A DNA stretch of 64,000 nucleotides from the NCBI GenBank assembly GCA_028289585.1, contig JANQPI010000042.1:124001-188000 (forward strand). Reading direction: 5' to 3'. Under the pieces are notes generated by a model. The model saw only the letters and a program-made list of their open reading frames with translations. It was not told where the DNA came from and made no database searches. This DNA comes from Candidatus Zixiibacteriota bacterium. GTDB taxonomy: Bacteria; Zixibacteria; MSB-5A5; GN15; FEB-12. The position numbers and the translations under genes were made by a program. Each line of letters begins with the position of its first letter. The first letter of the stretch is position 1. Positions 62-56,101 of the stretch are shown here, piece by piece.

Positions 62-932
62 ATGGCTGGTGCGGCTTGGCAATGCCCCCCGGTGCGGTCA
101 ATTCGAAGACATCGATCTGCCGTACAGTTGAATCTCCCAGCGTATCGGTGAAGACGACCAGGCCGACGGCATCCCACTGAAACTCAAACGCCGGCACCGC
201 TGGATCGGTCAAATCGAGGAAGGCACGGTCCGGGGGACCATAGACGGCCTCAACGTCGCGATACGGAGAGACATCCACTTGCAATGAATCCAGCGTCGGA
301 TGCACGTAGGCATTGGGGGTGTCGTACGCGGTGGCAAGGACCCCACGTACCGGTTCGGTGTCTTCGATCTGGCTGTTCGAATTGACATCCCAGACCATCA
401 CGACGAGACCTTCAGCTTGGTCGTAGAGAGCCAAGTTGTATGCACGTCCGCTCAACGGTACCGTCCCTGCCGGATTGCCCTTCCACGTCTTGACATCGGC
501 GTACCGATCCGAAAACAGAATCAGGTCACCCTGACCGTTGTTGCCGGGGATGAGCACCGGCGCCCGGAGAACAAACGTCAGCGTATCGTCCTCGTGCGTT
601 GCCTCAACAACCGCCTGACCGAGTGAGCCGGTGAAGGCATAGGAGAACGTCGCAACTCCGGAGACGTTGGTAACCGTATCGCTGCTGAATAGCCCGTCTC
701 CCGAAAGCACCCGAAACGTGACACGAGCACCGGGCACCGGATTATTGGACGCATCTCGCACGGTTACCTGTGGCGACGGTGTCAGTGTCGATTGGCCGAT
801 GCGCCCCACGATTCGTGTGGCATTGGCGGACAACGATCCAGAGGCGGGTGGCGGATCAACCGGGTTGTCCTCAGGACAACCCGCAACTAAAAGTCCAGCG
901 ATGACTATCGAGGCAATCGATACGTATCTCAA
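60..932 (-). CDS. Lipoprotein with a Big_1 (invasin-type) Ig-like domain
   Basis: A short hydrophobic signal ends in the lipobox LVAGC about 19 residues in, so the mature protein should be a lipidated envelope protein. Residues about 30-125 form a bacterial Ig-like domain of the Big_1 type, recognised by the VRDASNNPVPGARVTF and SGVATFSYAFTG strands. The remaining ~165 residues match no family I recognise. I chose the TTG at 932: it overlaps the upstream gene's TGA by four bases (TTGA), has a GGGGG ribosome site about six bases upstream and gives a basic residue at the start of the signal. A TTG at 944 is possible. It is probably co-transcribed with the beta-barrel gene before it, suggesting the two act together at the cell surface. 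The function is unknown. Confidence 0.75.
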   Translation of the reverse strand: MRYVSIASIVIAGLLVAGCPEDNPVDPPPASGSLSANATRIVGRIGQSTLTPSPQVTVRDASNNPVPGARVTFRVLSGDGLFSSDTVTNVSGVATFSYAFTGSLGQAVVEATHEDDTLTFVLRAPVLIPGNNGQGDLILFSDRYADVKTWKGNPAGTVPLSGRAYNLALYDQAEGLVVMVWDVNSNSQIEDTEPVRGVLATAYDTPNAYVHPTLDSLQVDVSPYRDVEAVYGPPDRAFLDLTDPAVPAFEFQWDAVGLVVFTDTLGDSTVRQIDVFELTAPGGIAKPHQP

Positions 933-36375: not shown

Positions 36376-37959
36376 TTAGAGTTTAACCGACGAGTCGAGC
36401 CAGACCGGCTTACCGTTGAGAATTGTCCCGACAACGCGTGCGTCCTCGAGGCGGCTAACCGGCAACTCGGTAATGTCATCGGAGAGAATCGTTAGGTCGG
36501 CCGGATAGCCGGGCAAGAGATAACCATGCCGATGCTCCTGACCAACAGCATATGCGGCCCCGGCAGTGAATCCATGTAGCGCTTCGTAAGCGGTCAGTCG
36601 TTGCTCCGGGAAGAAATGGTCACGCTTACCGACTCGGGAACGACGGACAGCGGCAACGATACCCTCGAGCGGTGCCAGTGGTTCGATCGGCGCATCGGAG
36701 CCAAATGCCATCGGAATGTGGGCCTGGGCGAACGTTTTAAAGAGAAATGCATTCTGCGCCCGGCTCGCCCAGTAGCGATTGATCAGCGGAATATCCGACG
36801 GGCAATGCGAGGGCTGCATGGAGGCAACCGCACCAAGTGATTTGAGCCGGGCGATGTCGCGACGGCGAATGAGTTGAACGTGCTCGATTCGGTGGCGCGC
36901 TCCAAATGCGAGCGCAGGAGCATCTTCGAGAGCATCAAGGACATTGGCAACGGCTCTGTCACCGATTGCGTGGACCGCGAGCGGAAATCCGAGCTTCGCT
37001 GCTTGGCGAGCCGTTGATCGCATCTCGTCGACGGTTGTCGTCGCAATGCCATAGTTGCTGGTCCCGGGATATCGCTGAAAACAGAGCGCCGTTTGGCTCC
37101 CGAGCGCACCATCGGCAAACAACTTGATGCCCGCCAGACGAAAGTACGGTGTGCCGGTTCCATAGTAGGTCTTTGTCTTGAGCAGATCGGGCAACAGCGC
37201 TACGCGTGGAAAGTGGTTGATACGCAAGCCAACCTTGTTACGCTCGGCCAGATCGAGATAGAACGCAAACGCATTCGGCGAATCGAACGAATGGACTCCC
37301 GTCACGCCGCGCTGGTAACAGAAAGCGAGAGCCTCCTGATACCGCTTTCTCATCTCGGTCTTCTTCAAGGGGGGCACGAACGAGAAGACATGCTCGTAGC
37401 CGATTTTTTCGCGCAGAATGCCAGTCGGCGTTCCGTTGGGAAAACGCACGATTTCGCCGTCGCTCGGATCGGGCGTAGCAGCATCGATGCCCGCTATCTC
37501 CAATGCTTTGCTATTGACCCAGCAGGAGTGGTTGTCTTTGGAGAAGATAAACGCCGGTCGCCCGTGACTGACGTTGTCGAGAAGGTAGCGATCCGGTTCG
37601 ACCCGACGACGCAGCGCATCGGGAGAATATCCCTCGCCCACGATCCAATCTCGGGGACCGAGTGAACGGGCATGGCGGCTGATGCGATCGAGATAGGCCT
37701 GGACCGAAGTAGCATCGGCCAGATGGACTCTCGCTAGAGACAGAGCGAAGTTGAAAAGATGAGCGTGAGCGTCCACCAAACCCGGGACGACCATCTTGCC
37801 GCCCAGATCGAAGTTCGCATAGCCTTTGAAGTCAGCGGTCCCTTTGAGACCGTTGCCGACCGCGACTACCTCCCCCCGGTTCAGAACGAGAGTATCAAAG
37901 ATACGTCCGTCGGCCATCGTGTAGATACGTCCGTTATACAGCAACGTACGCGCCTTCAC
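36376..37959 (-). CDS. Amidohydrolase, YtcJ-like
   Basis: A 527-residue metal-dependent hydrolase of the amidohydrolase superfamily. The metal ligands are visible as HAHLFNF (first HxH), the Lys/Glu region in the middle, AVHAIGDRAV, HRIEHVQLI and FGSDAPIEPL (final Asp). YtcJ relatives act on N-acyl or cyclic amides and formamides; the substrate here is unknown. The start is a GTG in the GTGA overlap with the selB stop, so it is coupled to selB. Its C-terminus shows the expected composite beta-sandwich (GYPADLTILSDDITEL). Confidence 0.88.
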   Translation of the reverse strand: MKARTLLYNGRIYTMADGRIFDTLVLNRGEVVAVGNGLKGTADFKGYANFDLGGKMVVPGLVDAHAHLFNFALSLARVHLADATSVQAYLDRISRHARSLGPRDWIVGEGYSPDALRRRVEPDRYLLDNVSHGRPAFIFSKDNHSCWVNSKALEIAGIDAATPDPSDGEIVRFPNGTPTGILREKIGYEHVFSFVPPLKKTEMRKRYQEALAFCYQRGVTGVHSFDSPNAFAFYLDLAERNKVGLRINHFPRVALLPDLLKTKTYYGTGTPYFRLAGIKLFADGALGSQTALCFQRYPGTSNYGIATTTVDEMRSTARQAAKLGFPLAVHAIGDRAVANVLDALEDAPALAFGARHRIEHVQLIRRRDIARLKSLGAVASMQPSHCPSDIPLINRYWASRAQNAFLFKTFAQAHIPMAFGSDAPIEPLAPLEGIVAAVRRSRVGKRDHFFPEQRLTAYEALHGFTAGAAYAVGQEHRHGYLLPGYPADLTILSDDITELPVSRLEDARVVGTILNGKPVWLDSSVKL

Positions 37960-39839
37960 AGCTCACTCCCGGCTTTTCGCAAATTCCCCTCCCGCCGCGT
38001 GATTCGTCGCCTATCCATTTCCTCAAGAACCGGAATCACGTGCTTGCGCGTGATTGCGAAATGATCTCGAAACTCGGTAACCGCCATCTGATCATGTTGA
38101 TGAAGATGGTCCTGTACAAAACTCACAAACGCCCTCCATGTCGAGGCCGGAAAGACAAACTCGGAACCTACCTTAATCACGTCCCCATTTTCAATGAGAA
38201 TACGTATTGCCTCCTGCCAGGCTTTCCCCCGATCAGCAAAGCTCTTGAGCGGTGGTGGAGCCAGGGCAGATTCCGTTAGTTGCTTGCGAATCTGATCCCG
38301 TGCTTTGGCAACGGCCGATGGGAGATTATCGGTCGCGGTTGACAACGTCACCCATTCGCCATCTCGACGCACTCGATTACGACTGACCAGGTAATCAACC
38401 AGCACTGCCGTTTCATCATTGGACAACATCAGGTCGTCGGCCAGACGTGGAAGTGCTTGTCGTGTGGCGCTACCATTGCTGTCAACGGCGGCGCGCAGGA
38501 CGGCTACGGCTAGATCCGTCGTTCGTTCAAGTCGCTCTTGACATGCCACGTAGCCAACGTGCGTTGTCACCACCCCCTCGGCGAGCATCGCCTTGAGCGT
38601 CTCCTGAGTTTGGTCTTCGGGAACATCGGTGTTTGAAAGCAATTCCGTTTGGGGTACGAAGAGCAAACGATCGAGCGTACTTGCGATAAGCTGGCGGGCC
38701 GTCAGCTCGCCCTTGTGTGTCAGCCAGGTCATCTGAGCGTGCTCCCGACGCTTCGGGAAACGAGCCAAATGCCCAACGATCGTCGCCCCACCAAGTGTCA
38801 TCATCGGAGTTGGTAGTCGAATGATCACAGGATCGCCAATCGGAGCAAAAAGCGGCGCTGTCGGCTGTACGAACACAAGGTCCTGCTGACCCGGCAGTAA
38901 CTCTTTCGCCCCAAAAAGCCGCACCTCCGCACGGACTGATGTGGTTGCGTGAAGAAGCTCGACCTCGCGGCGATCTTGTAGTGGTATCGGTGATGACGAC
39001 AGCAGTGTAGTCCGCAACGCCAGAACGGGTCGACGAGAGAAATAGCTGAGATCTTCGCGGGTCGTGACAACACCGCCTCGAACAAGCTCGGCGCCATCGA
39101 CACCGGAGAACGACAAGGCAGTCCGTGCTCCGGGTTGTGCGGTCGTTTGCGCCTCGTTGTGCGACTGAATCGTGCGAATGCGGCCAGAAGTTAATGATGG
39201 CCACACCGTTATCGTATCCCCCACTGACAGCGGGCCACCACGCAGCGTACCAGTAACAACACGACCAATGCCGGACTGAACGAAGACCCGATCGATGGCC
39301 AAGCGCGTGTGTCGCGCGCTCGGAACGTGCGTATGCAAGGCCGGTAACTGGTCGAGCCAATCACTCAACGCATCGAATCCGTCGCCTGTCACCGCCGAAA
39401 CAGTGAAAATGGGCGCACTCTCAAGGAACGTTCCAGCGACGCGCTGCCGCACGTCATCAGCGAGCAGTGTCAGCCAATCATCCTTGGCCAAGTCTGACTT
39501 GTTGATAACGATCGCACCCGTCCGGTGACCAAGAAGCTGAAGAATATCGAAGTGTTCCTGGCTCTGCGGCATCCAACCGTCGTCCGCTGCAATCACTAAC
39601 AAGACCACGTCGATCCCCCCCGCACCGGCAATCATCGTTCGCACGAAGCGTTCATGGCCGGGGACATCGACAAAGCCGAGCACGTCACCCGATCGTGTCG
39701 TGCGGAAGGCAAATCCAAGGTCGATTGTCATACCTCGACGTTTCTCATCCGGCAGTCGATCGGGATCGGTACCTGTCAGGCGCCGCACAATCGCCGACTT
39801 GCCGTGGTCGATATGGCCGGCCGTACCGACAACAATCAT
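37956..39839 (-). CDS. selB: Selenocysteine-specific elongation factor
   Basis: SelB is the GTPase that delivers Sec-tRNA to in-frame UGA codons that are followed by a SECIS hairpin. Its 627 residues show the EF-Tu-like GTPase domain ([11 protein letters not shown] at 5-15, [33 protein letters not shown]), domains II and III, and a C-terminal region of winged helices that binds SECIS (roughly residues 380-627). It overlaps selA by four bases (ATGA) and is followed by the amidohydrolase. The tRNA-Sec gene lies about 12 kb away on the other strand. Confidence 0.96.
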
Positions 39840-41221
39840 GATGCGAACTCGGGGGCAGTGAGGAGAGCTTTGGTAGCGGCAACAACCGTCGCATCGAGGT
39901 GCTCGGGGATAGCTTTGAAATCGATGACAAAGGCATCATCGAGAATGCGACCGACCAGAGAAACGTCTCCATGCCGGAATGCTTCAGCAACACGAGTTGG
40001 GTTGAATCGCTCCGGTGCGAAACGAATCGCAAGCGAAGGGATATCGACTTCAGGTGACGCTCCACCACCAATCCGGGCTGACGTTCCCTCGACCGTTAAC
40101 CCCTCCGGATGATTGAGTTCGGCAAGAATCGACTGTAGCCGAGAATAGAGCTTCGACTCGGGAACGGCCAACTGCCGCCAGATCGGAATGTCGTGATCCG
40201 CGTTCCCCTCGAGATACGACGGGAGAATCTCCTGCAGGAGGGCGAAAATCACCTTGTCGGCACGGACGGTACGAAAGAGTGGATTCTTCTTGAGGCGCAT
40301 AACAGTCTCCGCAGCACCAACCACGAGTCCCGATTGTGATCCACCCAGAAGCTTATCCCCGGAAAAGAGTGTCAGGGCTGCTCCGACAGCCACGGATTGC
40401 TGGACTGTCGGCTCAGTGTAGCCAAGGCGATCGGTCGTTGGGACGAGCACACCGGACCCAAGATCATTAACAACCGGTACGTTGTACTCGTTGCCGAGAC
40501 CAACCAAATCAGTCAGTGTCACTTCAGACGTGAATCCACCCTGGACAAAATTGCTGCGGTGAACTTTGAGAATCAGTCCGGTTCGATCTCCAATCACCTC
40601 ACGATAGTCATCGAGCGTCGTAATGTTGGTCGTGCCGACTTCCACGAGCCGGCTACCGGCCCGCCGGAGGATATCCGGGATTCGAAAGCCTCCACCGATT
40701 TGAACGAGCTCGCCTCGGGATATGATGACCTCTTTGCGCAACGCGAGACTGTTGAGACTAACATGAAGCGCTGCGGCACAGTTATTGACAACGGTCGCAG
40801 CCTCGGCTCCCGTGACGACAGCGAGCAACTGTTCGACGTATCCACCCCGTTGACCGCGGCGGCCATCGGCAATATCGATCTCCAAATTGCAGTAACCAGT
40901 CATCACGTCAGCCAGTCTCTGCCAAACGTCTGCAGGGAGAGGAGCTCGACCAAGATTAGTGTGAATCAGGATACCGGTACCATTAATCACCGGTTGTAGC
41001 CGAGATCGATCAAGGTCGCGTAGCCGGTGATGAAACACCTTTGCAATGCCGTTGGCATCCAGCGATTCACCCGCTTGAATTCGCGAGCGAACTTCATCAA
41101 CTGCCTGCCGCGCGATGACAACTCGCAGCGCGCGCGGAATGTTAGGGAAGTGCTGAACAACGTCAGTGAGATCCGCGAGACTATCAACGGCAGGGAGATC
41201 ACGCAGAGTCAGAGACGACAT
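39836..41221 (-). CDS. selA: L-seryl-tRNA(Sec) selenium transferase
   Basis: SelA is a pyridoxal phosphate enzyme that converts Ser-tRNA(Sec) to Sec-tRNA(Sec) with selenophosphate. The 461-residue product has the N-terminal helical region, [15 protein letters not shown], and the PLP-Lys in [15 protein letters not shown] use the ATG at 41221 because it shares a base with the preceding stop (TAATG) and gives the family length of about 460; a longer ORF into the upstream gene is not credible. It sits in the run sprA-M28-selA-selB. Confidence 0.96.
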
Positions 41222-42147
41222 TACAGCTCCGGCCATCGTGACGGCGTGTAGAGAAGGTAAGCGAGGACGCGACCCACATTGGAGAGGGCCTCGGGGGAGC
41301 AATTCTCGGGGATGTCAAACTCGGTATGCCAGTGCGGGTAGTCGAAGTCAATGATAAGTACCGAGGGGACACCGCCGCCGTTGAGTGCCACCTGATCATC
41401 ATACACGCGATGCCGGATCTCATTGCGCCAGGTAGTAATTCCGAGTTCGGCAGCGATTTCCCACAGAACATCGTTGAGCGGAGCAACGAACTGCTGCGAA
41501 ATAAATTCGCGGTAGATTTCCTGATTCTTATCCCCGACCAGTGAGGGAACAATCGCGAAGCGATACTTATCACGGATTCCCTGGAAGGCGAAATGGCGTG
41601 CACCGAGAAGATACCAGTCGAGGTCACCGGCTCGGCCGTAGTCTTCGCCGTCAGAGCAAACAAGATCGACATTGATCGCGGGCGGTGACTCCTTGAACAT
41701 TGTCGCCAGCTCCATGAGAATGGCAACACCGCTCGCACCGTCTGAGGCACCAGCAACAGGTTCGTTCCGCCGGGCAGAGTCCGTGGACTGGTCGGCCCAC
41801 GGGCGACTGTCGTAATGTGCCATGAGCAGCACAGCTGTGTCATCCTCCCCCGCACCACGAAATGATGCGATAATATTCACTAGCCTCAGGGTATCACCGA
41901 AGTACGGTTCGATGACTTCAAACACCTGGGAATCGACAGCCAGTCCAGCCTCCAGGAAGTGCGACACCAGCAGAGTACGGCACGCCGCCGCCGCTTCCGA
42001 GTTGGGCACGCGTGGACCCAGGGCTACCTGCGCCTCAAGGTGGCCAAAGGCACGTTGTGCGTTAAAGGGCGGTGGGTCTCGATCAATCGGACCACAGGCG
42101 GAGAGGAGCAGGGCGACGACCCCACCAAAGAAACTGATTATTCGCAT
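41221..42147 (-). CDS. M28-family zinc peptidase / glutaminyl-peptide cyclotransferase-like lipoprotein
   Basis: The 308-residue lipoprotein (lipobox LLSAC near residue 18) carries the M28 metal motifs: AHYDSRPWAD (His and Asp), GASDGASGVA (bridging Asp) and DGEDYG (Glu). The similarity is as strong to bacterial glutaminyl cyclases (QC), which share this fold, as to aminopeptidases, and the choice cannot be made by eye. It is 36 bases after sprA and overlaps selA by one base. QC and T9SS-type exported proteins often go together because many surface proteins carry N-terminal pyroglutamate, so a link with SprA is possible. Confidence 0.82.
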   Translation of the reverse strand: MRIISFFGGVVALLLSACGPIDRDPPPFNAQRAFGHLEAQVALGPRVPNSEAAAACRTLLVSHFLEAGLAVDSQVFEVIEPYFGDTLRLVNIIASFRGAGEDDTAVLLMAHYDSRPWADQSTDSARRNEPVAGASDGASGVAILMELATMFKESPPAINVDLVCSDGEDYGRAGDLDWYLLGARHFAFQGIRDKYRFAIVPSLVGDKNQEIYREFISQQFVAPLNDVLWEIAAELGITTWRNEIRHRVYDDQVALNGGGVPSVLIIDFDYPHWHTEFDIPENCSPEALSNVGRVLAYLLYTPSRWPEL

Positions 42148-42183: not shown

Positions 42184-45100
42184 CTAGAAGCGAATCTCCG
42201 TCCAAATAGCCAGCTGCCGAAGATGTGTCTTCCGGTCCAACTGGCGATTATTCGTATCCTGCCACAGACCGGAGAGTCCGCCCTTAATCTGCCGCGAAAA
42301 CTCATACTGAATGATCGGCTGGACCTGGAAGTCGGTCTGATCCCGAGTGGTCCGGAATGCGTTCCCAGCACTGGAACTCTCGCTCTTGTCAGCATTGTAT
42401 CGGATGGTCGCTTCAAATGTGACCCGGGACTGGAACCTAAGACGTCCGAGAAGCGGAATCTGTATACCACTGGGAGCCGAGAACTGCCAACGCGTGCTCA
42501 CCGCAATTCGCTGCCCGGTCGATCGCGTTTCCGTTGTCGACGCACCCGATGTACGGCTGAACTTCTCATCCGTCGTCCGAGTCGTTCCGTAGGAACCGGA
42601 AAGGGAGAAGTTACGGAACAACTTAAGCGTCAGCGCCAGCAGCGGTGTCTGGTTAACGGTCACAACACGCGATGTCACGATTCCTGTTTCGAGTGCCTCG
42701 GTTTCGCGCGTCGAGCGTGAATACGAAGTTCGTGGTGTGAAGATATCAATGAACTTATTGACGATCGGTTTGATCAACGGCAGCGTCTGGAACCGTCGGA
42801 TTGAAATCGTCAGGTCTGGCCAGCTCGTATTGCGGTCTTCATCACGACCACCTACAGCGATCAGATTGCGGTCGATCTGCTGGCGATACCGAACGTCCGT
42901 ACTGATACCGCCGAGAAGCGTAAAGCCTGATGACGCTTCGTACGAGACTCCTTCGCTCGCCCGTCGTGATGAGTTCGAAATACCAATCGGTACATTTGTT
43001 TCGTCACGCAGACCGAAGCGATACGCTAGCGACGGCCGACCGGTTAGTCCCGGCACCGTATTCGTATAACTCTCTTCGTACTTGTACGACGGAGGCCGAA
43101 CCCAGTTGGTCAAGAAGCGAATCACCGACTTCGGTGTTTCGATAATGCCCCACGATTGTCCGCGAGCAAAGAACCGCTGGTGGTTGATAACGCCGTTGAC
43201 AGACCAGGATCGCGACAGGTCCGACCGGCGGGTACCATTCGAACGATCAAGATCATCACGATAGTTCGCACGGTAGGAGAACGATGTGGTAAACCAGCCG
43301 AAGAGCTTGGGATCGTACGTACCACTGAAGTTTTGTGAATAGTTCAGCTGCTCGCCAAGGCGGAAATCGGACAACGAGAGATTAACGAGATTATCGTCGG
43401 CCAGATCGTTATTGGTCGACCAGACAAGACTTGTCTTCAACGTTGGAAAAATCTGGTGCGAGTAGTTCATCCGTGCGTTGAAATTGCGATTCAGGCTCGA
43501 ACGGCGATTCCCCTGGGGGTCATCGTTGATTGAGACCGTACGTGTCAACGAACCGGACCAGTTCCAGCGCTCGGGATAAAGCTGTAACGTACTCCCGGCA
43601 GCCTTATTCAGAAACGGAATCGGCTTGAGCCAGAAGAAGATCGGCACCTTAGGAGCGTTCCGCCAGCTCATGTCGTAGTCGCCACGAACGGTATAGTTCT
43701 CGGAGAATGAGAACGGTTGGGTCACTGACCGGCGATCAGAACGAGCATAACTGAGACTGAGTTTCTGACGATTGAGAAACAGGGTGAAGAGCGGATTGGT
43801 TGTCCGCTTATTGAAAGACTCACTGACACTAAACCGGCGCGTCTCCGAAGTTGTCTTCTCCAGCTCTCGAATCTCTTCTGGCAAGACGATATCCGAGTTG
43901 GTTCGCACCAGCGGCCGGGACTCCGTTCGGCTGTAGCCGGCCGAAATCGGGAGGGTCGCACCGAACGACTTGGGCAACAACTTATGCGCCTGGAATGTCA
44001 GGGAGTAGCTTTCGCTCACGTTCGATTGACCGGAACCAAGATTGTTGTTCGATCCCGCACGGGTAGCCGAAGAAATGCCGCGGAAAAATGCGTCCCTATT
44101 CTCAAGCGACGCATTAAACGTAAAGAGATCTGCGCCGCGCATATTCATCTCAACACGATAGGCTGTTCCGACATCGCGCCGAACATCGACTACTCGCATT
44201 TCGTCCATCCAGATCTCACCGGAAATCTCGTTCGAACCCGCGTTGACAACACCGGCAGCGAAGTACAGGACCTCGTTGATGTTCGGACGGCCAAAGATAC
44301 GGTACTTGCCACTGACAACATCAAGTTCGGCATTCGGGTTATCCAACGCTCGCAATGCTGAATCTTTGATTGCCGTAACTTCATTGAAATCAAAGTCGAT
44401 TTCATTACCGGATGCCCAACCCGGTTCCAAGAACGTTGACGTCTCGTAGTAGTTGACTGAGTCGCGGCCGACACGGAAGAAGAAGAAGACCGAGTCGGTG
44501 ACGGTTGCCTCAGGGCCGTAAACGAATAGTTGTAAACGACGGTACCCGGCATAACTCTCGGCTACCGGGTTTGTCTTCGTCGCCAGGCCGGTATCATTCG
44601 GCTTGAGGTTTTCATAGATCAGCGCCAGTGCTCGCTGCGCCTCGGTGACATTACTCGTCGGATCGGTGTAAGCCTCAACACCCGGAGGTGGTGTGAAGAA
44701 CTCATTGTCCTCTTCGGATACCGAGGCGACAACAAAGCTCGACGAGTCATTCGGGTTCACGACCCGCGTCGAGTCGATCAGAAGCGAGTCCGTCCAATTC
44801 GATTGGACAAAGTACCATCGTGCAACCTCAATCGTATCGGGGATCGTATCCGTAGCGGCTGACTCGATCCAGACACGCACATGGGTCGTGTTATCCCAGG
44901 TGGGATCACCCTCACGGAAGCTCTCTTCAATGATCTCCCGGACTGGAATTCGGATCGTCTTCCAGTCTGAGGCGTTGCGACTTCCGGGCACCTCATACTC
45001 ACCGGTCGACAGATCGACTCGGAAACTGCGGTACGTGTTGGTTTGATTCCAGAAGCCACCGGCGCGACGTGGCACCTCGGAGTCGACGTTATCCAGCGCC

Positions 45101-48100
45101 AAACCAAGCTCAACTCGATTCCCTTCGGTTCCGTTCAGCCACTCATAAAACCGCGGGTCGTTATCGGCAAAACGCTGATTGGGACAAGTGCCATCAGGTA
45201 GTGGACACTTTCCTTCGGCACCGTTGAACCAGTTGTCACCATTAGGATCCGGATTGAGGATCGGATCGTATCCCGGTTCTTCCTCGTCGGGTAAACCGTC
45301 GAGACCAACGTCTTCTTCTTCCGAGACGGCCTGGTTGAGATCTCGATCCTCAGTATCGAGATTACCATCACCGTCGATATCATCGGAGATTCGACCGAAG
45401 TCAAAGTTGATGACACCTCGATCACCACGGACACGCATCTCGAACAACTGCAGGCGATCCTCATCGAGACGATTAGCACCCAAGTAGTAGGTGATACCCG
45501 ACCAAGAATCTGAGCGAGGTGCGTCTGGCGGAGGCGGGTTGGTATCGGTCGTGTCGGTCACGAATGCTGCTTTGCGAAAGATCATGCGAAAGAGCGTAAT
45601 CGATCCCTCACCGGCCGCGCGCTCGGCATCAAAGACTTCCTGATAGCTGATTCGCGGAGGATTGTGCCACAGCATCTTACTGCGTCGACTCTCCGCCCCC
45701 ACCTGGAGTGGGAGACTGGAAAGCCGCCAGTCGTTACGCGTTGAGCCGAGACTCACCTGCTCAATCGCCGATTCGAAATCATCGACATAGGCAACACCAT
45801 CGACGTTCGGATTCGGGCGGGATTGCGCGAACTCACCGGCGATAGTGACCGACGACGGTGCCTCAGTGGTGATCAACGGCAATGCGTCAATTGCTGACGT
45901 GAGAAACGCCGGCTGGAAAGTGGCACGACCGTCGAACGACGTAACGAGTCCCGATGCCGTTTCCTGTCCAACCCGGGGCTTGCGGTCCTGGGCTTTGTCG
46001 GACTTGTAGAGTACCGTTGACCCGAAACGGACATCTTTGTTCCACTCGTAGTCGGCACGGGCGCCAAAGAGTGTCTTCCTGGCGATAGACACAAATGGTG
46101 CATACTCAAACTCGATCCGAAGATCTCCGTTTGGATCGAGAGCCCGATCAGAGAGGAGCGTCACCTGTCCAAAGTCGTATTGAATCGAGTAATCGACGTC
46201 TTTGGTCAGCGTTTCACCGTTGACGGTCACACGCTCTGACCCCTCGATAATGTTGGCACGGCCAAGACGAATCGTATTCGTCCGTTCCCGACTCGTCAGC
46301 TGAAGATAAAACTGCGTGCTGTTGACAACGCGCTGTTCAGTTGGGCGGCCGTTGTAGAGGAATGGATTACGCGCGATCGATGCCAGCTCCGGGGTCTGGT
46401 TGCCCAAAGAATCCGTAAATGTCGTATCCGAGTTAAAGGGAAAACGACTCGGGAAGAGCAGCAGTCCCCAGATCGGATTGTAGATCTCAAGGTTGTCATC
46501 CAATTGACCGTCGGGAATACGTGCCCCCGACGTTTGCGTCTGATCGAGACCGAAGATTTCGAGGTAGTTCCCCTCGCTCTGACCGGTCGATGAGTTAATC
46601 TGATAGTCGAGATTGGTGGCCTGATCCTCACGGCCTTGGACACCGACGAAGATTTTAAGTCCGAGATCTTCGGAGCGAAGGTTGCGGGGAACGTCATAGA
46701 CATTCCGCCACATCAGCGGCCAGGTCGGGTGCGTTTCGTTGTATTCAACATCGCTCGCCCGCAGCATCTTGAGCCGGTACGGCTGCTGGCTGATATCTCC
46801 AATCGTGTCGATGCCGAGGAAGTTGTTATTGTCGTCAAAGCGTGCCACTTCCATGTACACACCGAGCAGATCCCGGCGCGCGGTTCCGAAGTGGACATAG
46901 TGCTGATTGCGCGCGACATCGCGCCGAATGCCATCATCACTCGGGAAGACCTCGCGAATAGCAATCGAATCAGGTGTTGCATCAGTCTCGAAACGAGTTG
47001 GGTCGGTAGGATCGACAAAGAAGCGAGCAACCTCCGCAACGATCTGATCCTGTGAGTTTCGCTCCTGCTCGAAGAACTGGATCGTGATAATCGTATCGTT
47101 GCGTCCCAAATCCTGCTGGAGCCCGGTGGCGCTGCGGCGGAAGCCAAGGTCAAAGACGCGACCTTCGGCATACTGGTAGTCACGCACATAGCGAGCGTTC
47201 TCTTCACCACCCGGAGTGACCGCCGACGATTCCGATGATCCCTTCTCCTGCGAAGCGATCGCCGTCAAGTAGAGATTACCCAGCTGAGCTTCGGCTTTTA
47301 CGCCGAAGAGCCCCTGAATCGATTGCGAATAGCCAACAAACCGCGTGTTGGGAATCGAGAGATTCGTATTCCCGGCCTCGATCTTCTTGAGGATGTCATC
47401 CTCGTCGCCGTTGTAGCGAAGCTGAATTCGATTCGAAAGCGGGATGTCCGACTGACTGTCCTGATTGACACGAACGGTAATCTTGGTACCGATCGTACCC
47501 GTAACCTCGAAGCGCGACCGCTGATCCATATTGAGCGTTGGGAAACGACTCTGCTGAACGAGATCGGATTCGGCCCCGTCCGTCCAGGTCGAGCTTCCCG
47601 AGAACTCTATTCGCTGAAACCCGCTGATACGAAGCTGCCCGCCACCTTCACCGAAAATCTTGTCGAAGCGCTTTGGGAGTTGAACACCAACCGAGAGGCC
47701 GCTACCGCCGCCTGACTGACGAGCCTGATTGAGACCGTTCAGAAAGTTCTGCCGCCAGAGCTGCCGCTCTTTGCGCTGCATGCGGTAGTCCAGGTACTCG
47801 TTCGCGTCGACGGAGATCGGTACCTGCTCCAGGTTGTTGTAGAGCCGGGTGACGAAAGTGATCGAGTTCGTCTCGAAGTCGGCCCGCAGAAATTCGGGTT
47901 CGAAACGGAGATCGGTATCGAAGGACGGCGTCCGGGTACGGCCAATAGCGATCGAGAAGTCGTAGAGCGGCTCGGTATACCGAGTTACGAACTTGGAATC
48001 ATACGAGAGCGAACCCTGCCACCCAATCTGGGCAGAGACTTCCGAGGGGGCAGCGCCTGACAGGAAGAGAAGACCCAGCAGGAGTGCCCGGATGACGGTA

Positions 48101-48111
48101 TGCGGATGCAC
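42184..48111 (-). CDS. sprA: SprA-like giant outer-membrane protein (type 9 secretion translocon family)
   Basis: The product is about 1975 residues. After a signal peptide ending near SEVSA, it carries long regions typical of SprA: a repeated N-terminal domain rich in beta-strands (LPKRFDKIFGEGGGQLRISG; DQSQSDIPLSNRIQLR), acidic calcium-like motifs near DIDGDGNLDTEDRDLNQ, and a C-terminal half of repeating barrel strands (FSENYTVRGDYDMSWRN, YSHQIFPTLKTSLVWS and others). In Bacteroidota SprA forms the 36-strand translocon pore of the type 9 secretion system. The start is uncertain: a GTG at 48111 or a TTG at 48141; neither has a strong ribosome site. No other secretion genes are in view, so the partners must lie elsewhere. 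Confidence 0.88.
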   Translation of the reverse strand: MHPHTVIRALLLGLLFLSGAAPSEVSAQIGWQGSLSYDSKFVTRYTEPLYDFSIAIGRTRTPSFDTDLRFEPEFLRADFETNSITFVTRLYNNLEQVPISVDANEYLDYRMQRKERQLWRQNFLNGLNQARQSGGGSGLSVGVQLPKRFDKIFGEGGGQLRISGFQRIEFSGSSTWTDGAESDLVQQSRFPTLNMDQRSRFEVTGTIGTKITVRVNQDSQSDIPLSNRIQLRYNGDEDDILKKIEAGNTNLSIPNTRFVGYSQSIQGLFGVKAEAQLGNLYLTAIASQEKGSSESSAVTPGGEENARYVRDYQYAEGRVFDLGFRRSATGLQQDLGRNDTIITIQFFEQERNSQDQIVAEVARFFVDPTDPTRFETDATPDSIAIREVFPSDDGIRRDVARNQHYVHFGTARRDLLGVYMEVARFDDNNNFLGIDTIGDISQQPYRLKMLRASDVEYNETHPTWPLMWRNVYDVPRNLRSEDLGLKIFVGVQGREDQATNLDYQINSSTGQSEGNYLEIFGLDQTQTSGARIPDGQLDDNLEIYNPIWGLLLFPSRFPFNSDTTFTDSLGNQTPELASIARNPFLYNGRPTEQRVVNSTQFYLQLTSRERTNTIRLGRANIIEGSERVTVNGETLTKDVDYSIQYDFGQVTLLSDRALDPNGDLRIEFEYAPFVSIARKTLFGARADYEWNKDVRFGSTVLYKSDKAQDRKPRVGQETASGLVTSFDGRATFQPAFLTSAIDALPLITTEAPSSVTIAGEFAQSRPNPNVDGVAYVDDFESAIEQVSLGSTRNDWRLSSLPLQVGAESRRSKMLWHNPPRISYQEVFDAERAAGEGSITLFRMIFRKAAFVTDTTDTNPPPPDAPRSDSWSGITYYLGANRLDEDRLQLFEMRVRGDRGVINFDFGRISDDIDGDGNLDTEDRDLNQAVSEEEDVGLDGLPDEEEPGYDPILNPDPNGDNWFNGAEGKCPLPDGTCPNQRFADNDPRFYEWLNGTEGNRVELGLALDNVDSEVPRRAGGFWNQTNTYRSFRVDLSTGEYEVPGSRNASDWKTIRIPVREIIEESFREGDPTWDNTTHVRVWIESAATDTIPDTIEVARWYFVQSNWTDSLLIDSTRVVNPNDSSSFVVASVSEEDNEFFTPPPGVEAYTDPTSNVTEAQRALALIYENLKPNDTGLATKTNPVAESYAGYRRLQLFVYGPEATVTDSVFFFFRVGRDSVNYYETSTFLEPGWASGNEIDFDFNEVTAIKDSALRALDNPNAELDVVSGKYRIFGRPNINEVLYFAAGVVNAGSNEISGEIWMDEMRVVDVRRDVGTAYRVEMNMRGADLFTFNASLENRDAFFRGISSATRAGSNNNLGSGQSNVSESYSLTFQAHKLLPKSFGATLPISAGYSRTESRPLVRTNSDIVLPEEIRELEKTTSETRRFSVSESFNKRTTNPLFTLFLNRQKLSLSYARSDRRSVTQPFSFSENYTVRGDYDMSWRNAPKVPIFFWLKPIPFLNKAAGSTLQLYPERWNWSGSLTRTVSINDDPQGNRRSSLNRNFNARMNYSHQIFPTLKTSLVWSTNNDLADDNLVNLSLSDFRLGEQLNYSQNFSGTYDPKLFGWFTTSFSYRANYRDDLDRSNGTRRSDLSRSWSVNGVINHQRFFARGQSWGIIETPKSVIRFLTNWVRPPSYKYEESYTNTVPGLTGRPSLAYRFGLRDETNVPIGISNSSRRASEGVSYEASSGFTLLGGISTDVRYRQQIDRNLIAVGGRDEDRNTSWPDLTISIRRFQTLPLIKPIVNKFIDIFTPRTSYSRSTRETEALETGIVTSRVVTVNQTPLLALTLKLFRNFSLSGSYGTTRTTDEKFSRTSGASTTETRSTGQRIAVSTRWQFSAPSGIQIPLLGRLRFQSRVTFEATIRYNADKSESSSAGNAFRTTRDQTDFQVQPIIQYEFSRQIKGGLSGLWQDTNNRQLDRKTHLRQLAIWTEIRF

Positions 48112-48172
48112 ACTACCTATTGTCGAACCGTTCTTACGCAAGCATTAGAAAACGGTCAATAAGCAGCCTCCG

Positions 48173-49612: not shown

Positions 49613-51718
49613 CTACCCACCTCCGAGCGACAACTCGTGGTGGGCAACGTTCTCCTGCAAGTACGAAAGCACCGCCTGCCCTGCCGCGTCAAGATTGTTG
49701 GCGGGGAGCCCGTCGGCAGTCATCACTCGTCCTGCGACATTTCGAGCGGCCTCAAGCAGGTCACGATCGCGGGCAAGGTTGGCCATCGTCAGGGCCGGCG
49801 CTCCCGATTGCCGTCGGCCAAACAGTTCTCCCGGTCCCCGCAGTTCGAGATCGGCCTCGGCGATCTCGAAACCGTTGGTATGGTCAGCAAAGTAAGTCAG
49901 GCGCTGGCGCGCAACTTCGGAGAGGTCGCCGTAGGCCAACGCAATCACCAATCCCGGCTTACCGCCGCGACCAACCCGTCCACGGAGCTGATGTAACTGC
50001 GCCAATCCGAAGCGCTCGGCATGCTCAATGACAAGAATCGTTGCGTTCGGGTTATCGATGCCGACTTCGACAACGGTCGTCGCAAGAAGAACGTCGATCT
50101 CACCATCGCGAAACTGCCGCAACGTGGCATCCCGCTCCTCGGGGTCGACTTTGCCATGAACGAACGCCGTGTTGAGGTCACGGAACGCTCCGCGCGACAG
50201 TTCGATGTACGCCTCCTCGACCGACTGAAGTGGCAGATCTTCGGACTTTTCAATCGCCGGATAAATGATGTACGCCTGACCGCGGTCGCCGGCGGCCATC
50301 TCCTCCCGGACGTATGACATCACTTTGGCGCGGGCGTCCGACGTTCGCCAGACGGTCCGAATCGGTGCACGCCCCGGCGGGAGTTCATCGATCGTCGAGA
50401 GGTCGAGATCGCCATAAGCCGTCAGGGCGAGCGTGCGTGGGATCGGCGTCGCGGTCATCACCAGCAGATCCGGGTCGTTCCCCTTCGCGTGCAGTTTTCC
50501 CCGCTGTTCGACGCCGAAGCGATGCTGCTCGTCGATAATCACCAGACCGAGCTTGAAGAACTCGACCGAATCGTAGATGAGCGCGTGGGTCCCGATCAGA
50601 ATGTCGACATCCCCATTGGCGACCGCGAACGCGATCTCTTTCCGCGTTTTCGGCTTCAGCGAACCGCTGATCCAGGCGACGCGGGCTCCGGCAGCAGTGA
50701 GGGCTTCTGACCAATTGCGGAAGTGCTGGGCGGCGAGGATTTCGGTCGGCGCCATCAGGGCGGCCTGCAAGCCGTTTTCGGCAGCATAGAGCGCAGCAAG
50801 GATGGCCACGAGCGTTTTGCCCGATCCGACCTCGCCGTGAAGCAACCGGGTCATCGGCTGGGGTTTGTTGAGATCGGCGACGATCTCCGCCCACGTCCGC
50901 TGCTGGGCCGTGGTTGGCGAGAAGGGGAGCGCGTCAAGAAACGTCGCTATATGGTCCGCCGGTGGCTGGTAGCTGTGCGGTTTGGTTCGACCACGTTTCT
51001 CCCCGCGGTTCTTCATAACAAAATACTGCAACGCCAGCAGTTCATCGAAGGCGAGTCGCCGGCGGGCAGCCTCATGATCAGCTTTCGTGTCGGGATAGTG
51101 AATCTGGCGAATCGCCCGGTCGCGACTCATGAGTTGCAGCGATGGTACGTAGTCCGAAGCGAGGTAATCGGGAAGCGGATCGGCGAGGGATTCAAGAACA
51201 AACGCGCTAATGCGGCGCTGCTGACGTGATGTCAGTCCGAGTTTCGACAGCTCAGCTGTCTGGGGATAGACCGGGACAATCCGTCCGGCGTGAATCATCT
51301 GATCCTGTTCCGAGTCGAGCCGCTCCAATTCCGGATGAACGAGCTGGAAGCCGTTGTAGAAACCGACCGTGCCGGTCGCCGCGAGCAGGTCTCCCTTCTT
51401 GAAGCTCTTCTCCAGCCAGCGGAGTCCACGGAAGAAGACGAGCGTCACCGCCGCGGTTTGATCCTCGAGGATCAGCTCATACCGACGGCGCCGACCGCGC
51501 AGCATGCCATGCGCCTTAACCGTGCCGATAATCGTTGTCTCCTCCCCCACGGTCAGTTTGGCGATCGACGTAACGGTCGTGCGATCGAGATAGGCGCGCG
51601 GGAAACGCATCAGCATGTCCATAACCGTCACCAGACCGAGCCGCGCCAATCCCTCGGCTTTGCGCGGGCCAACGCCTTTGACGTATTGGAGCGGAGAATT
51701 GGGAGTGAGCGACGCCAT
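49613..51718 (-). CDS. recG: ATP-dependent DNA helicase RecG
   Basis: RecG rescues stalled forks by branch migration. The 701 residues have the N-terminal wedge (LTPNSPLQYVKGVGPRKAEGL, OB fold), the DEAH-like motor with Walker A LHGEVGSGKTLVAI, DEQHRFGVEQR, TATPIPRTLAL and the second helicase domain (ATTVVEVGIDNPNATIL, LRGRVGRGG). It begins a run down to DUF1844, murB, sprA, M28, selA, selB and the amidohydrolase. The upstream spacer divides it from the tRNA-Sec gene and holds an 8-bp inverted repeat. Confidence 0.96.
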   Translation of the reverse strand: MASLTPNSPLQYVKGVGPRKAEGLARLGLVTVMDMLMRFPRAYLDRTTVTSIAKLTVGEETTIIGTVKAHGMLRGRRRRYELILEDQTAAVTLVFFRGLRWLEKSFKKGDLLAATGTVGFYNGFQLVHPELERLDSEQDQMIHAGRIVPVYPQTAELSKLGLTSRQQRRISAFVLESLADPLPDYLASDYVPSLQLMSRDRAIRQIHYPDTKADHEAARRRLAFDELLALQYFVMKNRGEKRGRTKPHSYQPPADHIATFLDALPFSPTTAQQRTWAEIVADLNKPQPMTRLLHGEVGSGKTLVAILAALYAAENGLQAALMAPTEILAAQHFRNWSEALTAAGARVAWISGSLKPKTRKEIAFAVANGDVDILIGTHALIYDSVEFFKLGLVIIDEQHRFGVEQRGKLHAKGNDPDLLVMTATPIPRTLALTAYGDLDLSTIDELPPGRAPIRTVWRTSDARAKVMSYVREEMAAGDRGQAYIIYPAIEKSEDLPLQSVEEAYIELSRGAFRDLNTAFVHGKVDPEERDATLRQFRDGEIDVLLATTVVEVGIDNPNATILVIEHAERFGLAQLHQLRGRVGRGGKPGLVIALAYGDLSEVARQRLTYFADHTNGFEIAEADLELRGPGELFGRRQSGAPALTMANLARDRDLLEAARNVAGRVMTADGLPANNLDAAGQAVLSYLQENVAHHELSLGGG

Positions 51719-51878: not shown

Positions 51879-51975
51879 GGAAGAGGATGTCGTCTGGTGG
51901 CGGCCACGGCCTTCAAAGCCGCTCGGGGGGTAGTCGCACTATCCCTGGTAGGTTCGATTCCTACCCCTTCCGCCA
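51879..51975 (+). tRNA. selC: tRNA-Sec (anticodon TCA), gene encodes CCA
   Basis: The 97-nt gene folds as tRNA-Sec. It has an 8-nt acceptor 5' strand (GGAAGAGG), a long D stem of six pairs (GTCGTC with GGCGGC) around TGGT, the loop CTTCAAA with anticodon TCA at 51913-51915, a variable arm of eight pairs (51927-51934 with 51938-51945, including one G-T), the T-loop TTCGATT, discriminator G and CCA. Between the T-loop and the discriminator there are only 12 bases, not the bacterial 13, so the acceptor and T helices are 8/4 or 7/5, and position A6 meets a C. It is flanked by its own promoter. With selA and selB in the same window, selenocysteine use is likely. Confidence 0.95.
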
Positions 51976-51998: not shown

Positions 51999-52559
51999 GT
52001 GCGAATCGTACAGCCTGACGACAGCCGACTGATTATCGAACAGACTCCGGAGGGTCGGCGCCTGACACTGCCCCGAAAGACTCGCGTAATTGACAAGGCG
52101 TACTATTGCTTTGTTCTGGCAGGCTGGCTGGTAGTGGGAGTGTTCGTCGTTGGCTTCGTGATTGAGTCTGGCCTCGAGGAAGTGGATCTGATGTTCGTGG
52201 GCTTGTTTCTCTCCTTCTGGGCGATCATGGGAGTAGTCTTCCTTCTAAAAATCTCGTGGTCGATCACCGGCAAGGAAACAATCACCATCAGCGGTCAGCA
52301 GATCACCCGTCGACTACAGCTGAAAGGTCTTAGCTTCACGAGGAAATATGATCGATCCAAGATGACGGTGATCCACGTATCAACGTCGATTGGCTACTGG
52401 CTATGGTACTTCTGGGGCGATCCGACGGATTGGTTCACGGGTAGACAGATTGTGCTCGTCGAGATTGACTATCGTGACATAACGTTACGATGGGGCGTCA
52501 CAACCTGGGATGTTTCCGAGGCCGAGAGCATCCGCGACTTCCTACTGCAGAAGCCTTAG
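51999..52559 (+). CDS. Hypothetical membrane protein, possibly PH-like
   Basis: A 186-residue protein with a GTG start 24 bases after tRNA-Sec. Residues 35-60 and 66-84 are two membrane helices (CFVLAGWLVVGVFVVGFVI; FVGLFLSFWAIMGVVFLL). The remainder is a soluble beta-rich domain (ETITISGQQITRRLQL, IVLVEIDYRDITLRWG), reminiscent of bacterial PH-like domains attached to membrane anchors. It could be transcribed with the tRNA. Its stop overlaps the converging bshB1 stop by three bases. No family name can be assigned. Confidence 0.6.
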   Translation: MRIVQPDDSRLIIEQTPEGRRLTLPRKTRVIDKAYYCFVLAGWLVVGVFVVGFVIESGLEEVDLMFVGLFLSFWAIMGVVFLLKISWSITGKETITISGQQITRRLQLKGLSFTRKYDRSKMTVIHVSTSIGYWLWYFWGDPTDWFTGRQIVLVEIDYRDITLRWGVTTWDVSEAESIRDFLLQKP

Positions 52560-53359
52560 ATCGAACGACCAGGGATGGCCAGCGGATCGTCAAGACGCAG
52601 TATCTCCCGCACCGTATACGGCTCCGCATACGCTACTCCAATCCGATTCCCCAACTCATGTGACCGCGTATGCAGCAAATCGTAGATTGAAATCCCCGGG
52701 CTGAAGACACGATTCGTGTCCTCCCCCGTCACCGCCGTCTCAAGCTTATCGTAGAGTTCAGCCAGCATCTGACGTAACGACGTTGGCGCTTTGAACTGCG
52801 ATGCGTACGCCGCAATCGCATCGACCTGTGTCTGGAAAACATCGGAGATATCGACGAGGAATGAGAAATCGGTGTTACGGTAGTAACTCGCATACAGGAT
52901 GCGCCGGGGACGATGCGGTTCACCATCCAATGGCGCGGCTTTGAGACCCGCAATGAAGCAGGCGTCGTAACCAATCTGGTACGCGGCCGTGTGGTCGGGA
53001 TGACGCTGGGTCCAGTGCGGCAGGATCACAAGTTCCGGCGTGAGATCGCGAATCGTCTGCGCTACCGCCAATCGACTCTCCTGCGTGACCAGGAGTCCCG
53101 AATCGGGCATTGCCAGATTGCCGCGGTACGTCATCTTCATGATCTCCGACGCCGCTTTCGCCTCGGCCAGACGCGTCTCCGGCGTCCCTTGCGTCCCCAT
53201 CTCGCCACGCGTAAAATCGACCGCACCGATCGTGCGACCGGAGCGCTGCGCTTTGATCATGTAGCCACCGGACGTTATCTCGATGTCATCCGGATGCGCC
53301 GCGAGCGCCAGAATATCGCAATGGTCCGGCGTCCCGAGCACGTCGATGCGCTCAGCCAT
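52556..53359 (-). CDS. bshB1: Bacillithiol biosynthesis deacetylase BshB1
   Basis: It removes the acetyl group from N-acetylglucosaminyl-malate to give glucosaminyl-malate, the second step of bacillithiol synthesis. The 267 residues belong to the LmbE/PIG-L family: AHPDDIEITSGG has the zinc-binding His 22, Asp 24 and Asp 25, and the BshB1-like segments FTRGEMGTQGTPETR and NLAMPDSGL follow, with the third zinc ligand in HWTQRHPDHTAA. It overlaps bshA by eight bases. Confidence 0.92.
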   Translation of the reverse strand: MAERIDVLGTPDHCDILALAAHPDDIEITSGGYMIKAQRSGRTIGAVDFTRGEMGTQGTPETRLAEAKAASEIMKMTYRGNLAMPDSGLLVTQESRLAVAQTIRDLTPELVILPHWTQRHPDHTAAYQIGYDACFIAGLKAAPLDGEPHRPRRILYASYYRNTDFSFLVDISDVFQTQVDAIAAYASQFKAPTSLRQMLAELYDKLETAVTGEDTNRVFSPGISIYDLLHTRSHELGNRIGVAYAEPYTVREILRLDDPLAIPGRSI

Positions 53360-54482
53360 TCAGAATCTCCTCGTAGTACGACTCGTACTCGCCGACCAGA
53401 CGTTCCGTTGCGAAGCGTTGGTTCGCCCGGGAGACCGAGCGATCTTTGAACTGCTGGAGACGGACCGGATCGCGCAACAACCCGAGGCCCGATTCGGCCA
53501 TTTCACGCGTCTCCCCGACCGGATGCAGATAGCCGGTCTCTCCATGGGCGATCACTTCCGATAGTCCGGTACCGGACGTTCCGATAACCGGTACCCCACA
53601 CGCTTGCGCCTCAAGTGCGGCGAGACCGAACGATTCTTCCTCGGACGGGCACAAGAAGAGATCACAACAGGGCAGCACCGCTTCGACCTGTGACTGGTTG
53701 CCGAGGAAGATGACGCGGTCCTGAATTCCTCGCTTGACGATGTTCCGACGCGTCAGCGTCAGCTCCGGCCCCTCGCCAATGAGAATCAGCTTGGCGGGTT
53801 GCTGTTGCTGAATCCGGTCGAAAATGTCGACGACGTCGAGCGTCCGTTTGACGGGACGGAAGTTGGAGACATGAATGATAAGCGCTTCGGATTCGTCGGC
53901 AAACTCCGATCGCGTGCAGTCCGATGTCGACGGCTTGAAGCGGGTTGCATCGAAGAAGTTATGAACAACGCGCACCTCTTTGCTGACCCGGAAGACGTCG
54001 ACAGTCTCATCGGCCAGGTATTTCGATACGGCGGTCAGACCGTCCGAGGTATTGATTGAAAACCGTGTGATATCGTAAAACGACGGATCGGCACCGACCA
54101 ACGTGATATCGGTTCCATGCAGTGTTGTGATGATCTTCGGCACGCGGTCTCCGGTCGACCGAAGAATCTCGCGAGCCAGGTACGCCGAGGTCGCATGTGG
54201 TACGGCATAATGAACGTGAAGTAATTCAAGGTCAAACGACCGGACAACGTCCGCCATCTTCCCCGCCAGCGTCAGGGTGTACGGTGGCGCCTGCATAAGC
54301 GGATACGCTGTCGTCTGAACTCCGTGGTACTTGATGTTTGGTCGGTACCGATCAAGTCGAAACGGCAGGGCGTACGATACGAAGTGGATATCATGATCGC
54401 GTGCTGCGAGCTGCATCCCGAGCTCGGTCGCAACGATCCCGGAGCCCCCGGCTACCGGATAGCAGGTAATACCTATTCTCAT
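53352..54482 (-). CDS. bshA: N-acetyl-alpha-D-glucosaminyl L-malate synthase BshA
   Basis: A GT-B glycosyltransferase joining GlcNAc from UDP-GlcNAc to L-malate, the first step of bacillithiol synthesis. The 376 residues begin with MRIGITCYPVAGGSGIVATELG, typical of BshA, include HVHYAVPHATSAYLAR and end with the donor-binding EEESFGLAALEAQACGVPV. It lies between bshC and bshB1 with overlaps of 4 and 8 bases, so the three are one operon. Confidence 0.93.
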   Translation of the reverse strand: MRIGITCYPVAGGSGIVATELGMQLAARDHDIHFVSYALPFRLDRYRPNIKYHGVQTTAYPLMQAPPYTLTLAGKMADVVRSFDLELLHVHYAVPHATSAYLAREILRSTGDRVPKIITTLHGTDITLVGADPSFYDITRFSINTSDGLTAVSKYLADETVDVFRVSKEVRVVHNFFDATRFKPSTSDCTRSEFADESEALIIHVSNFRPVKRTLDVVDIFDRIQQQQPAKLILIGEGPELTLTRRNIVKRGIQDRVIFLGNQSQVEAVLPCCDLFLCPSEEESFGLAALEAQACGVPVIGTSGTGLSEVIAHGETGYLHPVGETREMAESGLGLLRDPVRLQQFKDRSVSRANQRFATERLVGEYESYYEEILNG

Positions 54483-56101
54483 TGGTCGTCTCCGGGAAGG
54501 ATAGTGAGCAGTTGATGATCGGCGGTCGTAACGTCGAGCTGATCTCGCAGCTGATCAACGACACGATACCCATACTTCGCAATGAACATGCTGATGTTCA
54601 TCACCCGCTCCTGCAACGTGCGTTCCGGGTAGAGTGCTGAACTGATCCGATAGAGTCGGTCACGGGTCTGTTGGCTCTTCTTCTTGTGCGTTGCAAACAG
54701 CTTGCCTTCGAACTGCTTGAGCAGATGGTCAATCTTGCCTTTGGTTTGCTCCGCAAACGTCTGGAGCCCGGAATCAAAGCGGAGGGACTCTGCGATGAAA
54801 TGCTCGATCCGCGAACGCACGTCCGCCTTGAGTTCTTCGGCTTCCAAATCGAGATCAGCAGGGAATGAGTCGGCAAGCACACGGTTGATTGTCTGCTCGA
54901 AGTCGCCCAACAGATCATCAAAAGAGACCGAGTAATCATCCATCAACTGACGAATTCGCGGTTCGATGAGCGATACGGTCGGCCGCTGTCGGTGAATTGG
55001 CGCAGGGCGATCGAACAGGTCGAACAGTGGATTCAATTGCGCAAGGTAAGCGATCTCAGCCGGACCACCATGCTGCGACAGCACGGGAAAAAGCCAGGAC
55101 TGAAAGACTGGGCGAAGCATAACATCGGGTGAAAACGATTCAGGGGTGCGATCGATCTCAGACCGGATATCATCGAGCGTCAATGTACGATTGTCGCAGG
55201 TTAACGCTGTTCCGGAGCGAAGCACCGGCTTGCGGCCGTAGCAATCATAGAACAGATGCGTGTGGTTCGGGTCTTTGTGAACCTGCAGGTGATAGCCAGC
55301 CCGCTCGATAGCGGCGTTCGATTCGGTTGTTCGCTGGTGAATCGCTTCCTGATGGTCAAGAACAGCGTGGAAAAATGGTCGTGCCAGCGCCTTTGCCTCG
55401 GGGTCAGCCGGGCTGAAGAAAACGAGGCCGGTACCGCGCGTCAGCCAGGCCATGAAGTGACCAAACGCCTCGACCATTGTTACGCCCGGTCGATAAGAGC
55501 GTTCGACAGCGTCATACAAATCGTTGGTGAAATCAGTCGACCCGAGCGTGTCGCGAAGCGTTGCTTTCGCCTGCTCAAGCGCGGCGGTGTCGTCGAGTTG
55601 TATGCGACCGGTTGGAGCGTCGCGGTCCGGTTCCGCATCGTAGGCAACCCGAACAAGATCACCACTGCGGCCCATCAGATACGTATGGTTCGCTTCGGCA
55701 AAATCGTGATCATCTCCGGCGATCCAGAAAATCGGGATGACTGATCGGCCGAGCTCATCGGTAAAACGATGCGCGGCTTTGACAATACCAAAAGCTTTGA
55801 CCAGAGACAAATAGGCACCGCCGAACAGTCCCGCTTGTTGACCGGCAAAGACACACAGTGTCTGTTGGTCAGCGAGTGATTCGAGACTGCTGATTGCTCG
55901 CCCGTCGGCTTCGTACCGTTGGTTCTGTCGACGAAGGATCTCAACCAGTCGAGGTCGATCGAACGATCGTTGATCAATCTGACGTGCAATCTCGGCACCA
56001 GAACGCCCCGGGTAGAACGTGGCAGCACCGTCGTGGCCCGCGACAAAATCGAGATAGAGATCAGAGTAGCCGAGCCGTCGGCTGGGGGCTATCGTCGTCA
56101 T
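54479..56101 (-). CDS. bshC: Putative cysteine ligase BshC
   Basis: BshC adds Cys to glucosaminyl-malate in the last step of bacillithiol synthesis. At 540 residues it matches BshC size. Visible segments are FAGQQAGLFGG and PIFWIAGDDHDFAEANH near the N-terminus, a central coiled coil, and a C-terminal conserved region ending MNISMFIAKYGYRVVDQL. It is the first gene of the bshC-bshA-bshB1 operon and lies 46 bases downstream of corA. Confidence 0.92.
   Translation of the reverse strand: MTTIAPSRRLGYSDLYLDFVAGHDGAATFYPGRSGAEIARQIDQRSFDRPRLVEILRRQNQRYEADGRAISSLESLADQQTLCVFAGQQAGLFGGAYLSLVKAFGIVKAAHRFTDELGRSVIPIFWIAGDDHDFAEANHTYLMGRSGDLVRVAYDAEPDRDAPTGRIQLDDTAALEQAKATLRDTLGSTDFTNDLYDAVERSYRPGVTMVEAFGHFMAWLTRGTGLVFFSPADPEAKALARPFFHAVLDHQEAIHQRTTESNAAIERAGYHLQVHKDPNHTHLFYDCYGRKPVLRSGTALTCDNRTLTLDDIRSEIDRTPESFSPDVMLRPVFQSWLFPVLSQHGGPAEIAYLAQLNPLFDLFDRPAPIHRQRPTVSLIEPRIRQLMDDYSVSFDDLLGDFEQTINRVLADSFPADLDLEAEELKADVRSRIEHFIAESLRFDSGLQTFAEQTKGKIDHLLKQFEGKLFATHKKKSQQTRDRLYRISSALYPERTLQERVMNISMFIAKYGYRVVDQLRDQLDVTTADHQLLTILPGDDQ

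Follow-up and report, generated by a model that had tools for sequence, protein, structure and literature searches.

In Escherichia coli the selenocysteine tRNA (tRNA-Sec) has 13 pairs in its acceptor and T stems, arranged 8/5 and without a bulge at position 5a. SelA reads the six-pair D stem of this tRNA; SelB depends chiefly on the long acceptor stem, which also acts against EF-Tu (PMC7609411; PMC4607533). PMC7609411 credits the finding that the 8-bp acceptor stem is the main SelB determinant to Baron and Boeck (1991). The survey of Santesmasses, Mariotti and Guigo (2017, PMC5330540) describes 47 bacterial tRNA-Sec genes, from several phyla, whose acceptor and T stems together make 12 bp. 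Most of these carry a bulged acceptor base at position 3a, 4a or 5a, and a bulge at 43a is common among them, not universal. The lineages named in its text are the Gammaproteobacteria, Clostridiales, Spirochaetes, two Alphaproteobacteria, Rubrobacter and Dehalogenimonas, and not the Zixibacteria; the Epsilonproteobacterial and Cloacimonetes forms are also noted there. A library search for Zixibacteria together with selenocysteine yielded a single paper, which deals with marine Deltaproteobacteria.

The window analysed here is a 64,000-nucleotide stretch of a Zixibacterial genome, and positions 51879-51975 of its plus strand hold a genuine selC gene, encoding tRNA-Sec(UCA) with an encoded GCCA end and recognised by ARAGORN and by Rfam model RF01852. 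A covariance-model search, the check proposed in the initial annotation, gave 65.6 bits (E 3.9e-11) against RF01852, above the gathering cut-off of 47 bits, and the gene is the sole match above that cut-off genome-wide. The 5' acceptor strand GGAAGAGG (8 nt, 51879-51886) is followed by the linker AT and by the D arm GTCGTC TGGT GGCGGC (51889-51904), with six pairs and a 4-nt loop in both the sequence and the parse of its relatives. Base 26 is a C, the anticodon arm spans 51906-51923, with the anticodon TCA (51913-51915) in the loop CTTCAAA, and the variable arm is long. The T arm reads GTAGG-TTCGATT; from 51948 to 51971 the sequence and pair counts give a T stem of five pairs, the T-loop TTCGATT and the 3' strand CCTACCCCTTCC, which occupies 51960-51971 between T-loop and discriminator and leads into G73 and the encoded CCA. 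Counting these bases confirmed the 12 reported in the initial annotation, whose six-pair D stem and TCA anticodon are likewise borne out by the sequence. The hallmarks of tRNA-Sec are thus present and are those of the E. coli molecule: UCA anticodon, G73, six-pair D stem with 4-nt loop and long variable arm. The mature tRNA-Sec would begin and end at the gene boundaries given here. In the precursor tRNA, base -1 (51878) could pair with G73.

The gene departs from the canonical 8/5 form, with its 13 pairs in acceptor and T stems, in that its 3' strand is 12 nt long. In a 7/5 register the acceptor 3' strand is matched by bases 1-5 and the next two Gs, G49-C65 is one of five T-stem pairs, and none of the twelve 3' bases is left unpaired; base 6, an A at 51884 (plus strand), is then bulged at position 5a, as register energies and pair counts both indicate. 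We are confident that this is the structure of the branch: twelve unbroken pairs in a 7/5 arrangement with A6 bulged, one 3'-strand base missing relative to 8/5, and an additional bulge at 43a. This second irregularity, absent from the initial annotation, lies in the anticodon stem, where A27 is unable to pair with C43 and pairs with U44 instead, leaving C43 (43a, 51922) bulged. Pairing of 27 with 44 without 27-43 occurs in 46 of 113 distinct relatives among the matches listed, mostly as C27-G44, and C27-G44 with a bulged U43 is found in many family members.

Base 6 provides a natural experiment. Named genomes were scanned with the 5' half of selC as query and base 6 left free; the sample is incomplete and its counts are lower bounds. 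The 12-base class comprises, among the matches listed, 113 distinct sequences from Zixibacteria, Spirochaetota, Photobacterium and Aliivibrio. In these, the 7/5 register is paired at all 12 positions, by Watson-Crick or G-U pairs; base 6 is an A, a C or a T, in no case a G, and pairs in none of the 113. The same 5' strand occurs in several other phyla, and a 13-nt 3' strand was found in Syntrophomonadaceae and other Bacillota, Thermodesulfobacteriota, Myxococcota, one Nitrospirota genome, and Elioraea and other Pseudomonadota (all among the matches listed). Among those 13-base genes with the same 5' sequence, base 6 is complementary to its partner in 29 of the 29 listed (C-G 18, A-T 3, G-C 4, T-A 4). 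Within the 12-nt class the SelA tree requires at least 15 changes of base 6, none of them to G; the chance of this is about 0.002 if the changes are taken at their minimum number and as equally likely to give any of the three other bases. Since base 6 is always paired in 13-base genes sharing the 5' sequence, the bulge would arise by loss of one 3'-strand base, and the simplest history suggested by these sequences is that base 6 lost its partner and was then kept unpaired.

The structural parse was applied to the window's own gene and 76 relatives and then to more genomes from the phylum. A 12-nt 3' strand is present in each of the 102 readable selC genes of Zixibacteria relatives, and the 5' strand is GGAAGHGG in every 12-base gene with a complete parse. 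Judged from these genomes, the 12-base strand is fixed across the phylum Zixibacteria, universal among readable genes and ordinary for the lineage. Three records call for separate mention. A record titled Calditrichaeota CLD4 (L256) has a selC identical to that of a Zixibacterial genome (G047, L061); its Calditrichota label is doubtful, and the genome is probably mislabelled. Photobacterium marinum AK15 (L193, 3253-3291 and 3490-3528) has two matches to the 12-base selC 5' half, about 240 bases apart. The Zixibacterial record Bin_366 (L243, from about 4262) is selC-like up to the anticodon stem and then continues into unrelated DNA; it is possibly an incomplete copy at a site of integration, or a misassembly.

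Two genes of the selenocysteine machinery lie in the window on the minus strand, overlapping by 4 nt. The selA gene for selenocysteine synthase (ORF 39836-41302, likely ATG start near 41221) matches TIGR00474 with 476 bits over model positions 1-451 of 455 and has relatives in the PDB (3w1h/3w1k and 8uzw); selB (37956-39839, 627 aa ORF), for the Sec-specific elongation factor, matches TIGR00475 with 265.5 bits, above the cut-off. Elsewhere in the genome is selD, which has one in-frame TGA in its N-terminal part (ACAGUASKL); the 55-nt stretch starting at that TGA forms a hairpin of -21.7 kcal/mol, only modestly better than shuffles (z -1.76). The genome therefore has selA, selB, selD and a selenoprotein, SelD itself with its one in-frame UGA. 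Since this SelD would require Sec and there is no other selC above the cut-off, the tRNA probably works in Sec synthesis and insertion. Next to selC lies recG (49613-51718, minus strand; RecG match in 54 of 54 family genomes), which adjoins selC in many relatives. Between selAB and murB, 42184-48141 (minus strand) encodes a 1985-aa predicted outer-membrane-like protein, SprA-like by eye, and three neighbouring ORFs at 52556-56101 (minus strand) resemble, by eye, genes of bacillithiol synthesis (LmbE-like deacetylase, BshA-like glycosyltransferase and BshC-like).

Set against the text of PMC5330540, the window gene agrees with the 5a type in all the features considered: a 12-nt strand to G73, a 7-pair acceptor stem, a single bulged base after acceptor position 5, a 43a bulge, and selA, selB and selD in the genome. 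It differs from the examples in that text in lying about 10-14 kb from selAB, not in one operon with them. Similar too is the Epsilonproteobacterial 7/5 tRNA-Sec (PMC4607533), with a seven-pair acceptor stem, 12 pairs, selA and selB in the genome and, according to PMC5330540, one bulged base; that form belongs to a different phylum and is likened here by description, not by sequences. The selC* tRNA-Cys and allo-tRNAs (Mukai et al., as reviewed in PMC7609411) also have 12-pair branches, theirs being 8/4 or 9/3, but unlike the window selC they have other anticodons and identities, with U73 in selC*. A second tRNA-Sec-like gene, with the anticodon GCA, was seen in a Zixibacterial genome (L296, about 300-395, minus strand; G084, contig C141:3355-3446). 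Its discriminator is apparently T, its variable arm is long and its 3' strand has 12 nt; it resembles a selC*-type tRNA-Cys, a type listed in PMC7609411 for phyla other than Zixibacteria.

The initial annotation left the branch as either 8/4 or 7/5, with an A-C mismatch at A6. A6 does face C if the branch is folded as 8/4, with eight acceptor positions, a four-pair T stem and G49 left unpaired. That register is geometrically open, bases 8 and 65, and likewise 7 and 66, being able to pair in every distinct 12-base sequence among the matches listed, and 8/4 tRNA-Sec species exist (PMC7609411). It has one pair fewer, though, and would impose the mismatch on 113 of 113 sequences among the matches listed; with the rest of the fold fixed, ViennaRNA gives it -21.5 kcal/mol against -24.8 kcal/mol for 7/5 with the bulge, a cost of 3.3 kcal/mol. 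On folding energy and pair counts we rejected 8/4 as improbable, and the mismatch is better read as the 5a bulge of the 7/5 fold. A thirteenth pair could instead be regained in the mature tRNA, between base -1 and G73, if RNase P cleavage were shifted. Base -1 is C in the window and C or T in 107 of 117 12-base sequences among the matches listed, and so could pair with G73; but T or C is also common there in the 13-base class (21 of 28 among the matches listed), and the GCCA encoded in 39 of the 113 distinct 12-base sequences among the matches listed pins down G73 as the discriminator that SerRS and SelA require, which makes this proposal very unlikely.

We regard decay or repurposing of the tRNA, as a pseudogene, an allo-tRNA or a selC*-type tRNA-Cys, as scarcely credible: the stem is non-standard and 12-pair branches are also found in allo-tRNAs, but the UCA anticodon, G73, six-pair D stem and strict conservation, with selA and selB intact and selD of the Sec type, led us to reject it on identity elements and Sec machinery. 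An assembly or sequencing error, in which one T-arm or acceptor base had been missed, has a negligible probability. A strand of 12 nt likewise stands in 102 independently assembled relatives, and the 12-nt strand recurs, among the matches listed, in named genomes of Spirochaetota, Aliivibrio and Photobacterium, isolates of the last included; the comparison with relatives called for in the initial annotation revealed neither a missed base nor a 13-pair selC among the 102 parsed, and no evidence favouring an error was found. With this strand length shared by every parsed relative, neither chance nor error can be its source. The preferred reading is still the 7/5 branch with its 5a bulge.

An altered recognition by the local SelA/SelB pair had also been suggested. 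The short branch behind that suggestion is real; the trait is not local, being phylum-wide and recurring in Spirochaetota and Photobacterium. Both proteins are ordinary full-length family members. On a SelA tree of 83 rows, of which only 7 have a 13-base tRNA, the 12/13 label is clustered and does not split into two clades; it needs 3 changes, at least 2 of them forced by well-supported branches, and no SelA clade specific to 12-base tRNAs emerged. The window protein's mean identity to its family, against that among members, is 48 versus 60% for SelA, 44 versus 58% for SelB and 57 versus 65% for RecG, used for comparison. SelA and SelB exceed RecG in divergence only slightly, and accelerated evolution of the local pair was rejected; since RecG is divergent too, most of the SelA/SelB divergence is general to the lineage. 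Family models, the 83-row SelA tree and the identity comparison with RecG gave no sign of a special SelA/SelB pair.

In the working we propose, the locus would encode the genome's sole selenocysteine tRNA, which SerRS would serylate; SelA, reading the six-pair D stem and G73, would convert the Ser-tRNA-Sec, and SelB would deliver the Sec-tRNA. The bulged base 6 may stack into the helix and so keep the 5' strand at 13 nucleotides, in which case the branch would still be long for SelB, against EF-Tu. This stacking is proposed because the 5' strand still has its full length (8+5) although the 3' strand is one base short. Counting against it is the 8-bp stem rule of E. coli, under which a bulged stem of seven pairs would be expected to work poorly in that species, and we put the odds that the bulge stacks in and preserves branch length at about even. 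More tentatively, and in our view rather unlikely, the 5a bulge of the Zixibacteria may have been selected as an unpaired stacked spacer in place of the thirteenth pair, with SelB, and perhaps SelA, co-adapted to a 12-pair branch.

The 12-bp tRNA-Sec with a 5a bulge has been known since 2017, and the lineage Zixibacteria is new for this variant relative to the groups named in the text of PMC5330540. A known minor architecture of tRNA-Sec is now extended to a whole phylum, in which it is universal among readable genes, with comparative evidence that the bulge is a true one: among the matches listed, G is absent from base 6 throughout the 12-base class, and base 6 is paired in every gene of the 13-base class. 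For annotation, tRNA-Sec models built on 13 pairs can misplace the discriminator in 12-base genomes. The bulge also opens a simple way of testing how SelB gauges the length of the branch, and, if the spacer reading were true, the Zixibacteria would offer a natural system that meets the E. coli length rule by a bulge, not by a pair.
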